Below are positions 19,514-44,330 of a stretch of DNA of 64,000 nt, in pieces. This DNA comes from Spinactinospora alkalitolerans (lineage in GTDB: Bacteria > Actinomycetota > Actinomycetes > Streptosporangiales > Streptosporangiaceae): assembly GCF_013408795.1 (NCBI RefSeq), contig NZ_JACCCC010000001.1, positions 5,456,001 to 5,520,000 on the forward strand. Reading direction: 5' to 3'. The translations under genes and the position numbers were made by a program. Below the pieces are notes generated by a model that was given only the letters and a program-made list of their open reading frames with translations, searched no databases and had not been told where the DNA came from. Within the stretch, counting starts at the first letter, position 1. Each line of letters starts with the position of its first letter.

Positions 19514-21742
19514 GTGGAACAGACCAACCACAACTTCCTCAACGCGGGAGGTCAGACCGGGATCTCCGACCGAATGCGGGAGCTGCTCTCCCGGGCCGCG
19601 CAGGACCACATCTCCGAGCAGAAATCGCAGGGTGCGGTTACCGAGGAGATGCGCCAGCGCCTCGAGGGCATGGAATGGCTGCTGCGCGAGTTCCGGGAGC
19701 GCGAGTTCGCCACGCTGGCCGAGGCCGTCACCGCGGTCCAGTCCCGCGTCGACGAGCTGTCCGCCCGGCCGCCGGAGTGGGCCGAGACACTCGCCGAGCA
19801 CATCGAACAGGTCGGAGAGCGGGTCAAGCCGCTCGCGGAGATGCCCGCGCTGCGCGCGGACGTCAAGGGCGTCGCCGGCAACCTCGAAACCGCGATGAAC
19901 AGGCTGCAGAGCGTCGCCGAGACGGCCCTGCGCACCGCGGGCCAGATCGACGACCTCAGCGAGCGGGTGGAGGCGCTCACCGCGGGCGTGGACGCCCGCT
20001 TCGACCGCATCGACGAGGCCCTTGAGTCGCTGAGCACCCGCGCGGCCACGATGGAGAGCGCGGTGAACACCGTCGCCGAGCGCCTCGAACAGCAGCACGA
20101 GGCGGCCCGCGAACTGGCCGGCGAGCACCACGAGGCGCTCACGGCCGCGGTCACCGAGGGGCGCGAGACCCTGGAGCGCGCCGTCACCGAGGGCCGGGAG
20201 TCGCTGGACCGGGCGATCACCGAGCGGCACGCCGCGCTGGAGTCCCGGATGCGCGAGCAGCACGAGGCGGCGCTGGGCAAGGCCGACGAACAGCACGAGG
20301 CCCTGAGCGGCAGGCTCGACGACCAGCGGACCGCCATCGCCGCCAAGGTGGACGAGGGCGTCCAGACCCTCACCGGCAAGGCCGACGAGCAGCAGACGGC
20401 CGTCACCGCCAAGCTGGACGAGAGCGTCCAGACCCTCACCGGCAAGGCCGACGAGCAGCAGGCCGCCGTCACCGCCAAGCTGGACGAGGGCGTCCAGACC
20501 CTCACCGGCAAGGCCGACGAACAGCACGAGGCCCTGAGCGGCAGGCTCACCCAGGGGATGGAGCTGCTCACCACCCAGGCCGAGGAGAACCACGCCGAGG
20601 CCACCGCCGCCGTCGCCGACGCCAACAGCGCCATCGTCAAGCTGGCCAACTCGACCGAGGGACAGCTCAGCGAGGTGCGTTCGCAACTGCGCAAGCACCA
20701 GTCCGAACTGCACGAACGGTTGGAGGCCCAGTACGCGGAGCTGCGCGAGCGCGACGACCAGCAGCACGAGGTCCTCACGGGCAGGCTGACCGAGACGGCC
20801 GAGAACCTGCGGGCCGCGGCCGAGGAGCGGCACGCGGCGACCGGCGCGGCCATCGCCGAGGTCACCGGGGCCGTCGCCGAGGCCAACAACGCCGTCTCCG
20901 GCCTGGCGGAGAAGAGCGACGCGCAGATCAGCGAGCTGCGGGCAAGCGTGGACGAGAGCGCCCGGTCGCTGACGGCCAAGACCGACGAGCAGCACACCGC
21001 GCTCGTCGAGCTGTTCGAGGAACACCGCGAGTCCGTCGAGGGCCGTGTGGAGCAGCAGGGCCGGGAGCTGTCCGGCAAGGTCGACGCGCACCTGAACTCC
21101 CTCACCGACAAGGTCGACGGCCAGCACGACGCGCTCACCGGCAAGTTCGAGCACGGTCTTGGCCGGCTCAGCGACCGGTTCGACACCTTCGAGGGGCACT
21201 TCGAGGGCAGCTTCGAAGGGGTCGAGGGCAAGATCGACGGTGTCGACGGACGCCTGGACGGCCTCAACGGCCGACTGGACGGCCTCGACGGCCGGGTCAA
21301 CGGCGTCGAGGGCAAGTTCGAGGGCGTGCACGGCCAGTTCGACGGCGTCGACGGGCGGCTGGAGGCCATCGACGACCGGCTGGAGGCGCTCAACCAGCGC
21401 CTCGGCCAGTTGCCGGCCTCCATGGAGGTCAGCGAGGTGCACCGCCGCCTCAGCGAGCTGGTGGACCGCCCGCTCGTCGACCACTCCGACCGGTTCGACT
21501 CGATCGACAGGAAGCTCGGCGATTCACTCGACCCGCTGATGGGCGAGCTGCGGAGCCGTCCCGACCGGCACGAGTTCGAGGAGACCATCAGCGAGGCCGT
21601 GGAGACGTCGCACGACGACATCACCAAGCGCCTGGCCGCGCTGGAGGAGACCATGCTCGCCCTCGCCGAGGCGCTGCTGCGCCCCGGCCGCGACGGCAAG
21701 AAGAAGCGCCGCCTCATCGAGGACGACGAGGACGACGAGTAA
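19514..21742 (+). CDS. Long repetitive coiled-coil protein of unknown function
   Basis: 742 residues from a GTG with AAAAGGAG 8 nt upstream. There is no signal peptide or membrane segment. Almost the whole chain is charged, Ala/Glu/Leu-rich and heptad-patterned. Residues about 275-345 hold three 22-residue tandem repeats of the form QTLTGKADEQ-x-AVTAKLDE. Residues about 570-630 are a run of seven-residue units (DGVDGRL, DGLNGRL, DGLDGRV, EGKFEGV) like a trimeric or dimeric fibre. The C-terminus is a basic patch (GKKKRRL) and then acidic (IEDDEDDE). It could be a cytoskeletal or chromosome-organising filament, or an apolipoprotein-like rod; I do not recognise a family. It is monocistronic and followed by a clear terminator. 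Confidence 0.8.
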   Translation: MEQTNHNFLNAGGQTGISDRMRELLSRAAQDHISEQKSQGAVTEEMRQRLEGMEWLLREFREREFATLAEAVTAVQSRVDELSARPPEWAETLAEHIEQVGERVKPLAEMPALRADVKGVAGNLETAMNRLQSVAETALRTAGQIDDLSERVEALTAGVDARFDRIDEALESLSTRAATMESAVNTVAERLEQQHEAARELAGEHHEALTAAVTEGRETLERAVTEGRESLDRAITERHAALESRMREQHEAALGKADEQHEALSGRLDDQRTAIAAKVDEGVQTLTGKADEQQTAVTAKLDESVQTLTGKADEQQAAVTAKLDEGVQTLTGKADEQHEALSGRLTQGMELLTTQAEENHAEATAAVADANSAIVKLANSTEGQLSEVRSQLRKHQSELHERLEAQYAELRERDDQQHEVLTGRLTETAENLRAAAEERHAATGAAIAEVTGAVAEANNAVSGLAEKSDAQISELRASVDESARSLTAKTDEQHTALVELFEEHRESVEGRVEQQGRELSGKVDAHLNSLTDKVDGQHDALTGKFEHGLGRLSDRFDTFEGHFEGSFEGVEGKIDGVDGRLDGLNGRLDGLDGRVNGVEGKFEGVHGQFDGVDGRLEAIDDRLEALNQRLGQLPASMEVSEVHRRLSELVDRPLVDHSDRFDSIDRKLGDSLDPLMGELRSRPDRHEFEETISEAVETSHDDITKRLAALEETMLALAEALLRPGRDGKKKRRLIEDDEDDE

Positions 21743-40654: not shown

Positions 40655-40942
40655 AACGGCCCATGATCATACTGCTCGGCGCCATGGGCCGACCGGCGGT
40701 CGCACCGCGATCCGTGATTACTCCACTCTCATTATGCCTTGTCGTGCGAGTGCTTCGGCCATATCACCGATACGGCCCGGAGACGACGGCGCGGGCCGGA
40801 CCTGCATCGCCGCCGCGGTAAGGGATCACCGGGCCCGGAGGTGAGAGATCAGGAGATTGCCCTCACACCCTCCCGATCACGGCGAACCGGACGCTAGAGT
40901 CGCAAAGGGTTCACCGCACCCGGAAGGGAGGAGATCGGCGTC

Positions 40943-40993
40943 ATGCCTCCCACTTTCGGCAAGCCGGGCGCTAGAGTCCGACTGGAAGCATAG
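40943..40993 (+). CDS. Possible 16-residue leader peptide
   Basis: ATG at 40943 to TAG at 40993 encodes MPPTFGKPGARVRLEA. A GGGAGGAG ribosome-binding site ends about 10 nt upstream. It ends 101 nt before the main gene at 41095. The second GCTAGAGT repeat lies inside it, so the ribosome-binding site may be fortuitous. It has no regulatory codon run that I can recognise. Very tentative. Confidence 0.25.
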   Translation: MPPTFGKPGARVRLEA

Positions 40994-41094
40994 CGCGTGT
41001 TCATCGCCGTGCCACGCGGGCCGGGTGGTCCGGGCCGGCGGTCCGGTGAGCCCCTTTCGGGTCTCGTCCGGCACGACGACGTCGAGGAAGCACC

Positions 41095-43650
41095 GTGACC
41101 CGTGACGTGGAAGACTTCGACGGCGCCGACTGGCCGCTGTTCACGCTGCCACCGCCGCCGTACGCGGTCGGAGCCCGCGTGCCGGGGCAAGCGGTCCCGC
41201 CGCCGCCCGAGCACGAGGACGGCGCACCCCCGGAGCCCGGCGACCCCCCACGGAGTCGGCACCGGGACAACGGTCCCGAGCGCCCCCCACGGAGGCAACG
41301 GACCGAAGGACGATCGCGGGGAACCAGGGCAGCGCCCGATCGATCGCCTTCTCCCCCGTCCCCGGCCTCCCCGGACGACCTGCCGCCCTCTCCCAGGGGC
41401 GCGGACCGGTTCTTCCCGGAACCGGCGGACCGCCCCGGCCGGAGGGGACTCGCAGGAGAATCGCAACTGCCGCCCAAGGACAGCCTCCGGAGTTCTCCCA
41501 TCGCACCGCATCCGAACGAGCCACACGACGGCGGCCCCGGCCAGACCGGGCAGCCGCAGCAGCCTCCAGCGCCCGCGAACCAGGAGTCGGCGGAGGAGAC
41601 CGCGCGGGCTCCGCGGCCGACTCCTCAGCAGCAGGGCGTCCCTCCCTGGGGCGATGTGCTCCAGCCCGATTCCCCGCCCCCCGCGCCGTCGGGTCCCCGG
41701 CAGGGCGGCGGCGGGTGGAACGCCCCTTCGGGCGCGCAGCGCCCTCCGCAGGGCCCGCCCCCCGGCTCCGCCCCGGGTCCGCAGCAGCCACCGCAGCCGG
41801 GACCACAGGGTCAACCGGGCCCCCGCGGACCGCAGGGCCCCGCCCCCCAGCAGCGACCCCGGCAGGGGCCGCCCACGGGCGCGCAGCAGCCTCCGCAAGG
41901 ACCACCGCAGGGGCCACCCCCCGGCGCCAACCCGCCCACCGGCGGACAGCACCCCATGCCAGGCCCCCAATCCGGCCCGCAGCAACCCGGCCCCCAATCC
42001 GGCCCCCAGCAACCCGGCCCCCAGCAGCCGGGCCCGCAGCAACCCCAGCAGCGCCCCGCCTGGCACGGCCGAGCACCCGGGCAACCGCCGCAGCAGGGCT
42101 TCCCGGAACAGCAGGGACCGCAGGCCCCCGGCGCGCCGCGTCCGCCGCAGGGGCCGCCCACGGGCGCGCAGCAGCCCCATCCGGGTACGGGCGCCCCGAT
42201 GGGAGGCCCCGGCGCCTCCGGCCCGCAGAGGCCGCCTCAGCCGCCACAGGGGGCACCTCGACCGCCGCAGGGCCCGCAGCAGCCCGGCCGTCCGCCCGGC
42301 GCCGGACTCCCGGCCCTCGCCGGCCCCGGACCGGCCTCGGGCCCGCAGCAGCCACCGCAGCCGGGACCACAGGGTCAACCGGGCCCCCGCGGACCGCAGG
42401 GCCCCGCCCCCCAGCAGCGACCCCGGCAGGGGCCGCCCACGGGCGCGCAGCAGCCTCCGCAAGGACCACCGCAGGGGCCACCCCCCGGCGCCAACCCGCC
42501 CACCGGCGGACAGCACCCCATGCCAGGCCCCCAATCCGGCCCGCAGCAACCCGGCCCCCAATCCGGCCCCCAGCAACCCGGCCCCCAGCAGCCGGGCCCG
42601 CAGCAACCCCAGCAGCGCCCCGCCTGGCACGGCCAGGCACCCGGGCACCCCCCGCTGCAGGGCAGGCTCATCCCCCCGAACGGCGGCGCGCCCGAGGCGC
42701 CGGGGGCCGAGCCGGCGTTCCCCTCGGACGCCGCGGAATCCACCCAGCACATCAACGCGGTGCCCGATGACGGCGCGACGCAGGCCATCCCGCCCGTGGG
42801 CGGCGAACCGGTCGGCGCCACCCAGGCGGTCCCGCCCGTGGCGGACGTCTTCGGCGGCCGCCCGATGTTCCGGGACGAGGCACCGCGCGGTGGTGGCGGC
42901 GGTGGCGGCGGTGGCGGCGGCGGCGGTGACAACAGCACCGCGGAGATCGACCTGTCGGGCTACGACGACTACGACGATCGTCCCCGCCGGAGCGGCCGCA
43001 CCAGGACGCTGCTGCTGGCGGCGGGCTTCGCGGTCCTGCTGCTCCTCGGTGGCGGCGGCGCGTTCTTCTTCGCGACGGGCTCCGGCCCCGACGCGGGCCT
43101 GGCGGCCTCCGAGTACGACGTCGCGAAGGTCTCCGACGAGTCCACCGACTCCGAGCCCCTGGGGATCGACGAACTGTTCTCCGTGCAGAGCATCGAGGTG
43201 GCCGGGGAGACGTTCACCCAGGTCCAGACCGACGACACCGACAAGTGCGAGACCGCCGCGCACGGCGACTACGGCCAGGTGCTCAACGACAACGGGTGCC
43301 GCCAGATCGTGCGGGCGTCCTACGTCAACGAGGACGGTTCCCGCGCGGTGACCGTCGGCGTGGCGGCGATGGCCGACGCCGACCAGGCCGGGGCCGCCCA
43401 GGAGGGGCAGGACCTCGCGGCCACGCAGTGGTTCGCCGGCCTGCCCGGCAAGGAGGACAGCGGCGCCGAGCGCCTCGACATCGCCGGGGGGCACGCCACC
43501 GGGGCGTCCTGGGGGCGCTACCTCGTCTTCACCCTCGCCGCCAACAGCGACGGCCGCCTACCGGAGGGCGAGACCCCGGAGCTGGCCGCCATCAGCGAGG
43601 AGTTCGTCAACGTGCCACTCGTCCCCCTGGGCGAACGCGCGACCGGCTGA
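41095..43650 (+). CDS. Pro/Gln/Gly-rich single-pass membrane protein with extracytoplasmic domain
   Basis: 851 residues from a GTG with GAGGAAG 6 nt upstream. Residues about 150-535 are Pro-Gln-Gly low complexity built from PQGPP-, GPQQPG-type units. A glycine run lies near 600-612. One membrane helix follows at about 637-662 (TLLLAAGFAVLLLLGGGGAF). The C-terminal 190 residues would be outside the cell and carry two Cys, in KCETAAHG and DNGCRQIVRASY, probably a disulfide. The disordered N-terminal part would be cytoplasmic. The coding region includes an exact 292-bp direct repeat. This layout is shared by many actinobacterial wall- or signalling-related proteins, but I do not recognise a named family. 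Monocistronic, with a terminator after it. Confidence 0.85.
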   Translation: MTRDVEDFDGADWPLFTLPPPPYAVGARVPGQAVPPPPEHEDGAPPEPGDPPRSRHRDNGPERPPRRQRTEGRSRGTRAAPDRSPSPPSPASPDDLPPSPRGADRFFPEPADRPGRRGLAGESQLPPKDSLRSSPIAPHPNEPHDGGPGQTGQPQQPPAPANQESAEETARAPRPTPQQQGVPPWGDVLQPDSPPPAPSGPRQGGGGWNAPSGAQRPPQGPPPGSAPGPQQPPQPGPQGQPGPRGPQGPAPQQRPRQGPPTGAQQPPQGPPQGPPPGANPPTGGQHPMPGPQSGPQQPGPQSGPQQPGPQQPGPQQPQQRPAWHGRAPGQPPQQGFPEQQGPQAPGAPRPPQGPPTGAQQPHPGTGAPMGGPGASGPQRPPQPPQGAPRPPQGPQQPGRPPGAGLPALAGPGPASGPQQPPQPGPQGQPGPRGPQGPAPQQRPRQGPPTGAQQPPQGPPQGPPPGANPPTGGQHPMPGPQSGPQQPGPQSGPQQPGPQQPGPQQPQQRPAWHGQAPGHPPLQGRLIPPNGGAPEAPGAEPAFPSDAAESTQHINAVPDDGATQAIPPVGGEPVGATQAVPPVADVFGGRPMFRDEAPRGGGGGGGGGGGGGDNSTAEIDLSGYDDYDDRPRRSGRTRTLLLAAGFAVLLLLGGGGAFFFATGSGPDAGLAASEYDVAKVSDESTDSEPLGIDELFSVQSIEVAGETFTQVQTDDTDKCETAAHGDYGQVLNDNGCRQIVRASYVNEDGSRAVTVGVAAMADADQAGAAQEGQDLAATQWFAGLPGKEDSGAERLDIAGGHATGASWGRYLVFTLAANSDGRLPEGETPELAAISEEFVNVPLVPLGERATG
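41779..42070 (+). repeat. 292-bp direct repeat, copy 1 (inside the Pro/Gln-rich gene)
   Basis: Identical base for base to 42343-42634, at a constant offset of 564 bp (compared line by line). Since 564 is a multiple of 3 the two copies are in the same frame and encode the same 97 residues. Each copy also contains shorter internal repeats (CCCAATCCGGCCC-type units). Identity at synonymous positions indicates a recent duplication or gene conversion. Confidence 0.95.
42343..42634 (+). repeat. 292-bp direct repeat, copy 2
   Basis: Second copy of the exact repeat described at 41779-42070. The 272 bp between the copies encode a related but non-identical Pro/Gln-rich stretch. Recombination between the copies would delete 564 bp in frame, so length variation of this protein between isolates is expected. 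Confidence 0.95.
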
Positions 43651-43737: not shown

Positions 43738-44330
43738 GGCTTGATGCGATCCCGGCCGCAACTGGGACCCGCGGTGACCGGACGACAGTACGCGCCGCCC
43801 CCGGCCCCAGGGGGTCGTGAAGCCCCAGCCCAAGGAGGGATCCGCGGTGACCGGGCGATCCTCTCGCGCGGCCGAAGGCCCATCAAGGGATCGCCCCGGC
43901 GCCGCGCCGCCCACGCCGCCACCGTGGGCGCCAGGACGCGACCGCGGTTTCGGCGCGCGGTGAAGAAACGGGCCGCCGTGCCCGCTCGCCTCGGCCACCG
44001 AGGGCGTGAGACACCGGCCACAGGAGTTTGAACCCCCACCCAAAGACTGAACGCACACCGCCACTCTGTGCGCCGGGTCGAAACCGCGGTGTCGGCCTGT
44101 ACCCATGGTGTCGGCGTGCGCTTCGCGCGCGGGTGGGCGATTTTGCGTCCACGGGCCTTCGGCCACGCGAGAGCATCGCCCACCCGCACGCCATCCCTCC
44201 TGGGGCCGGCCTTCACGACCCCCTGGAGCGGGCCTTCACGACCCTCTGGGGCGGGCGCACCTCCTGGGGTGGGCGCGCCACTTGGAATGGGCGCCGCTTG
44301 AGGCGGGCACGCCGCTCCGAGCGAGGACCA
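43738..44330 (+). repeat. Intergenic repeat family A, copy 4 (longest)
   Basis: About 590 bp between the terminator region after the Pro/Gln-rich gene and the truA stop. The first hairpin module has arms GGGCGATCC (43853-43861) and GGATCGCCC (43888-43896) around GGCCGAAGGCC (43870-43880). The second has arms GTGGGCGAT (44133-44141) and ATCGCCCAC (44175-44183) around GGCCTTCGGCC (44154-44164). The first module with flanks matches the complement of copy 1 at roughly nine of ten positions over 80 bp. The second, with the CTCCTGGGGCCGGCCTTCACG block, does so over about 130 bp. The CTTGAGGCGGGCACGC end resembles the outer side of copy 3. Its ends are not sharply defined. Confidence 0.75.

Follow-up and report, generated by a model that had tools for sequence, protein, structure and literature searches.

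Between rplM-rpsI and truA-rplQ, the Spinactinospora alkalitolerans chromosome carries a gene for a single-pass membrane protein whose low-complexity arm contains an exact, in-frame 292-bp repeat. We analysed this gene within a stretch of 64,000 nucleotides (64 kb), hereafter the window, and in related genomes, where the gene order, similar repeats and conserved arm ends recur. On balance, we favour a joint reading in which a repeat within a tether, conserved candidate phospho-threonine sites and a proposed AUC start codon are all properties of one sensor-like membrane protein. The proposed coding sequence (41500–43650, + strand) comprises 716 amino acids and a stop, and lies in a frame that a mechanical list of open reading frames begins at GTG 41095.

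The arm protein, as we call it here, consists of a Pro/Gln/Gly-rich arm, one transmembrane helix placed at the hydropathy maximum (43009–43068, +) and an outside domain (43120–43647, +), in line with the first-pass annotation, which had taken the gene to encode a Pro/Gln-rich membrane protein. The arm is probably cytoplasmic, because basic residues precede the helix and two invariant cysteines come after it. A Pfam search of the 851-residue frame at E 1 returned no family, and hence no Hanks-type kinase domain; a search of the whole frame against NCBIfam found no family either. A scan of contigs with the single protein found no relative, and a profile built from nine close relatives recovered 28 loci. 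Weak matches to FliL were set aside; for the window protein these span the transmembrane region. On the opposite strand, an 866-residue open frame runs across the whole gene (40894–43494, −), which we take to be a by-product of G+C-rich sequence.

The position of the gene is conserved. In 29 of 38 family loci, rpsI, rplM, truA and rplQ all lie around it within a 7.5-kb stretch; the other nine lack at least one of these genes within that distance, and in four of the nine genomes all four are present in a wider stretch (L078–L081). The flanking order is also kept in all four Streptosporangium loci and in one Microbispora locus, and among 15 Streptomyces loci both truA and rplM are found in ten, rplM only in four and neither in one. 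The transmembrane and outside part of the protein is matched somewhere in 194 of 200 family genomes, paralogs included. In mycobacteria, the truA-rplM interval is the site of ESX-4, a type VII secretion locus. In the distant locus L077, a second protein of the same type but with a short arm (L078; 27% to the query) and a CAP-domain protein are encoded between the gene and rplM (4659–6592 of L077), and the open reading frames of two further intervals looked, by eye, like other genes. The S. alkalitolerans genome itself contains two adjacent relatives with an arm, a transmembrane helix and an outside domain (L084, 6177–8554, −), which adjoin lgt-like and DsbA-like genes, the neighbours being named by eye. 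Between the arm-protein gene and truA, positions 44199–44256 of the window hold 2.5 copies of a 23-bp repeat.

The outside domain was modelled with AlphaFold2 from 37 sequences, and ten-residue blocks reached a mean pLDDT of 92–99 from about residue 61 onwards. The predicted domain superposes on the PknH sensor structure 4esq with a Z-score of 11.2 and an rmsd of 3.3 over 135 aligned residues. The predicted fold is also like those of the mycobacterial proteins TiME (Z 9.3 and 9.0) and an Rv0999 ortholog (Z 7.4), the structural alignments showing 12% and 9% identity; the remaining matches, including MucB (6.7) and RseB (6.5), had Z-scores below 7, and START-like entries also appeared. A Foldseek search with the same model gave no match below E 0.1, with 4esq at E 1.5. 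The Pfam family PknH_C (PF14032) scored 13.7 bits for the window protein against a cut-off of 27 bits, and was matched at E ≤0.1 by 9 of 37 members, the best at 8.3e-4. By prediction, the outside domain has the PknH sensor fold, but it is not filed in the PknH_C family. PknH of Mycobacterium tuberculosis is built as kinase, Pro-rich linker, transmembrane helix and sensor domain; the arm protein has the same order of Pro-rich linker, one transmembrane helix and outside sensor domain, but differs in having no kinase domain, a much longer low-complexity arm and a PknH_C score below the cut-off. According to PMC7785237, the Pro-rich linker of PknH differs in length among M. tuberculosis complex strains, giving PCR products of 442 or 352 bp, a 90-base difference that parallels the variable arm described here.

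Both ends of the arm are conserved and its middle is not

Across loci, stop-to-stop frames contain 270–968 residues before the transmembrane helix and 176–217 after it (L067, which lies at a contig end, is omitted). This supports length variation of the arm between species, as had been expected of a low-complexity region. Comparison of relatives shows that it is the two ends of the arm that are conserved. At the N-terminus stands the peptide I(M)APHPNEP (41500–41523, +). At the membrane-proximal end, the window protein has the motifs ESTQHINAV, GATQAIPPV and GATQAVPPV (within 42736–42840, +), followed by a poly-glycine run (42887–42928, +) that precedes a conserved STAEIDLS motif.

The three juxtamembrane motifs are candidate phospho-threonine sites. 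In 33 loci, a set that omits L067 and the distant loci L073–L077, we counted 40 occurrences of T-Q-x-[IVL] in 23 juxtamembrane stretches, where shuffled sequences gave a mean of 2.4 and a maximum of 8; the motif was missing from the remaining ten stretches. A frequent form is A-T-Q-x-[IV]-P-P-V. An acidic residue occupies position −3 in 26 of the 40, and the residue at +3 is itself part of the search pattern. In PMC7164672, the M. tuberculosis sites lost on PknA depletion are described as acidic at −1 and from −3 to −6, with Pro at −1 and +2, Leu or Val at +3 and basic residues at +4. The TQ motif fits this logo in part, being without the Pro at +2 and the basic residue at +4. The +3 residue is discussed in connection with FHA binding in a passage of PMC5549992. 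We suggest that A-T-Q-x-[IV]-P-P-V is a candidate phospho-threonine site and that the TQ threonines may be phosphorylated; a literature search for the peptides TQAIPP, TQAIPPV, DATQAIPPV and TQVIPPV did not find them. In L044 (Thermobifida cellulosilytica), four tandem ATQVVPPV motifs stand before the helix, and the arm contains a run of N.

Repeats recur in the arm. In 29 of 38 loci (L067 omitted, and with the N codons of L044 left out of its control), the longest exact repeat is longer than any found in 100 codon shuffles. Motifs of the type [AG]W[HNT] occur one to three times per arm in the eight nearest loci; the duplicated block of the window contains one, and the Trp of the first W motif (GGWNAPSGAQ) lies further upstream at 41716–41718 (+). 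Units around the W motif could be compared in seven genomes with two or more units each. Within a genome, a pair of units is 97% alike in the window, 99% in L041, 100% in L042 and 88% in L043, and units of different genomes are at most 73% alike; unit 1 of the window is 56–57% like the other two. Because units are so much more alike within than between genomes in four of the seven, recent duplication or homogenisation appears to have occurred separately in several lineages, not in all. The longest repeat of L042, at 315 bp, has an offset of 282, half of the 564 found in the window; a unit of some 94 residues would account for this relation, which may also be coincidence.

Much of this variability would also be expected if the arm were a tolerant disordered spacer drifting neutrally, its repeat and short motifs playing no part in what would otherwise be an ordinary sensor protein. 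The arms differ widely in length and composition, no significant repeat was found in nine of the 38 arms at 100 codon shuffles each, the AW/GW motif is mostly confined to the nearest relatives, and the units of L040, L045 and L046 are 58–70% alike within their genomes, no higher than between genomes. Neutral drift is, however, at odds with an arm that is conserved at both ends and not in the middle, and we regard it as unlikely, if well short of negligible. Elsewhere in the window, at 20146–20608, tandem repeats of period 33, 66 and 132 were seen, apparently in a coding stretch of KADEQQ type to judge from the consensus.

A proposed AUC start codon and its likeness to infC

Conservation of the reading frame begins only at IAPHPNEP, and GTG 41095 is probably not the true start. 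By comparison with infC as a positive control, we propose that translation begins at the AUC codon at 41500–41502 (+), with the Shine-Dalgarno core GGAG (41489–41492, +) 7 bases before it. The pattern GGAG-N6/7-ATC precedes the first conserved residues in 32 of 34 close loci; the exceptions are L067, at its contig end, and L069, which has another layout with a GTG adjoining its ATC. The spacer between GGAG and ATC has 7 bases in 18 loci and 6 in 14, a one-base difference that breaks the frame upstream. Between the upstream stop and the ATC, 12 of the 32 anchored loci have no in-frame ATG, GTG or TTG, among them L048, L051, L068, L045 and L066, where the stop falls 8–28 codons upstream (just 8 in L048). 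The first canonical codon downstream of the ATC has no constant position, its distance ranging from 8 to 264 codons, and in L070 the ATC frame meets a stop before any such codon. In L044 and L070 the ATC frame differs from that of the outside domain, and both arms contain N (a single one in L070).

Downstream of the ATC, the sequence varies as a coding sequence does: for codons 2–14, pairs of codons with a single difference are synonymous in 48% of cases, against 24% expected. Over bases 0 to +30, G+C content drops to 0.60–0.62. Because genomes rich in G+C usually encode Ile with ATC, the invariance of this codon alone is weak evidence. When 341 family genomes were scanned for the pattern, 59 matched it and 1 matched the reversed control; inspected by eye, 50 of the 61 places listed belong to this block and the other 11 do not. 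A scan of the S. alkalitolerans genome with GGAGN{3,4}CCCATC was unspecific, with 53 sites where the reversed pattern gave 35. When NTG was substituted for ATC, 50 of the 341 genomes matched; by eye, the listed places looked unlike the block, and none of those in G261, G250, G267, G337 and G027 lies at the best match to the outside domain. The distant loci L073–L077 have M-R-G-Q within the first 17 residues, so that an AUC start would be a derived state.

The closest parallel is infC, the gene for IF3. In all 22 family genomes examined (L113–L134, of which L129 is the S. alkalitolerans genome), its start reads GGAGGGGTC[CT]C-ATC-AGC, and this GGAG-N7-ATC layout resembles the start of the arm-protein gene. 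According to PMC5472188, Streptomyces infC starts with ATC, sigR starts with GTC and is repressed by IF3, and both starts have been mis-annotated. Like sigR of Streptomyces, whose start is described there as conserved across a genus, the arm-protein gene would be an actinomycete gene with a conserved non-canonical start; it differs from sigR in codon, gene and lineage, and its start rests on comparative evidence. The IF3 protein is unrelated to the arm protein. The comparison points to a conserved non-canonical start at Shine-Dalgarno distance, as in infC and sigR, and makes the arm-protein gene a candidate for a second IF3-discriminated gene, putatively under the control of IF3. Among the matches listed in a literature search for AUC or ATC start codons, titles mostly concerned mitochondrial genomes, the three prokaryotic ones being on Bacillus RNase Y, Neisseria type VI secretion and Staphylothermus.

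The GGAG-N6/7-ATC block might instead be an element with a regulatory role, in DNA or RNA, within a longer coding sequence whose start is a canonical codon upstream. In the window, the frame upstream of the ATC is open for 150 codons and has a GTG 107 codons before the ATC; a canonical codon lies somewhere upstream in frame in 20 of the 32 anchored loci, as with the ATG 8 codons before the ATC in L046. The GGAG is mostly paired in single-sequence folds, with a mean unpaired value of 0.23. In the stretch before it, the three frames are 18, 26 and 44% synonymous, the last close to the downstream 48%, though few sites vary. Against such an element stand the one-base spacer differences, which shift the upstream frame, and the five loci in which a nearby stop leaves no canonical start before the ATC. 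We consider the regulatory element improbable and retain AUC 41500 as the proposed start.

The exact repeat and its origin

The two copies of the repeat, R1 (41779–42070, +), which has PAWHG at its end, and R3 (42343–42634, +), agree at every one of their 292 bases, and the identity ends exactly at these boundaries. Their offset of 564 bases corresponds to 188 codons and is in frame, and the duplication thus stands as the first-pass annotation had described it. By the rule of three, no difference in 292 bases places the divergence between the copies below about 1%. The next-longest exact repeat in the window has 42 bases. Shuffling the codons of the coding stretch 100 times produced no exact repeat of more than 19 bases, so that low complexity does not explain the 292-bp repeat. 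The chromosome (G000; one contig of 6,684,050 bases) contains only two full-length matches to the unit.

Homology extends beyond the identical core: in the alignment, 13 of 18 bases agree just 5′ of it, and 24 of 29 just 3′ of it. Lower-identity homology of this kind would be expected to remain where older repeats have recombined or been homogenised. The 272 bases that separate R1 from R3 (R2; 42071–42342, +) align to the unit with a score of 169.9, against 122.9 ± 10.1 and a maximum of 160.3 in 500 codon shuffles, and probably represent a diverged relative of it. Because the flanks of the core retain similarity and the middle unit scores above the shuffles, the locus appears to consist of three related units, the outer pair having recently been made identical. 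The earlier proposal of recent duplication or ongoing conversion agrees with this identity and with that of the units within four of the seven genomes.

The first-pass annotation had also raised the possibility of phase variation, that is, of a contingency locus in which changes in copy number would switch expression, or the reading frame, among the cells of a population. Two long identical copies at a distance of 564 bp could in principle recombine. However, each of the 29 significant repeat offsets is divisible by three, and gain or loss of a unit would keep the frame, giving changes in length and not an on/off state; such divisibility is expected from coding constraint, yet it counts against phase switching, and we think such a switch very unlikely. 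That the second copy was created or misplaced by an assembler is scarcely credible, since, although the N in the arms of L044 and L070 suggest that assemblies struggle in this region, the chromosome is in one contig, the flanks of the copies differ with weaker homology running past the core, a 315-bp repeat occurs in L042, and significant repeats are present in 29 of 38 loci.

A possible tethered sensor and its proposed control

Our preferred reading is that a lineage-specific, in-frame duplication arose in a low-complexity arm and has been kept identical by its recency or by gene conversion. The protein bearing this arm would cross the membrane once, have a PknH-like outside domain and lack a kinase. 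Its arm would serve as a cytoplasmic tether, the middle of which is a freely resized spacer with a few W motifs, the resizing being brought about by recombination. We further infer signalling, docking and IF3 control. Hanks-type kinases may phosphorylate the conserved juxtamembrane T-Q-x-[IV] sites, and FHA-type partners may recognise them; in this way the outside domain would be connected to a complex for signalling or scaffolding. Initiation at AUC 41500, as for infC, would probably hold synthesis low through IF3, and synthesis would rise when IF3 is short relative to ribosomes.

More tentatively, and with somewhat less than even confidence, we speculate that these parts make up a receptor-like membrane scaffold conserved in actinomycetes of Nocardiopsaceae type, the product of a second IF3-gated gene, in which infC-like AUC initiation couples the IF3/ribosome ratio to a sensor with a phospho-threonine docking arm, and in-frame duplication retunes the length of that arm. 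If the AUC start is true, the annotated starts of this gene's relatives are likely to be wrong, and another conserved gene starting with AUC would allow control by IF3 outside infC and sigR to be tested directly in these actinomycetes. The repeat itself provides a clear case of a low-complexity tether resized by in-frame duplication while its ends are conserved.
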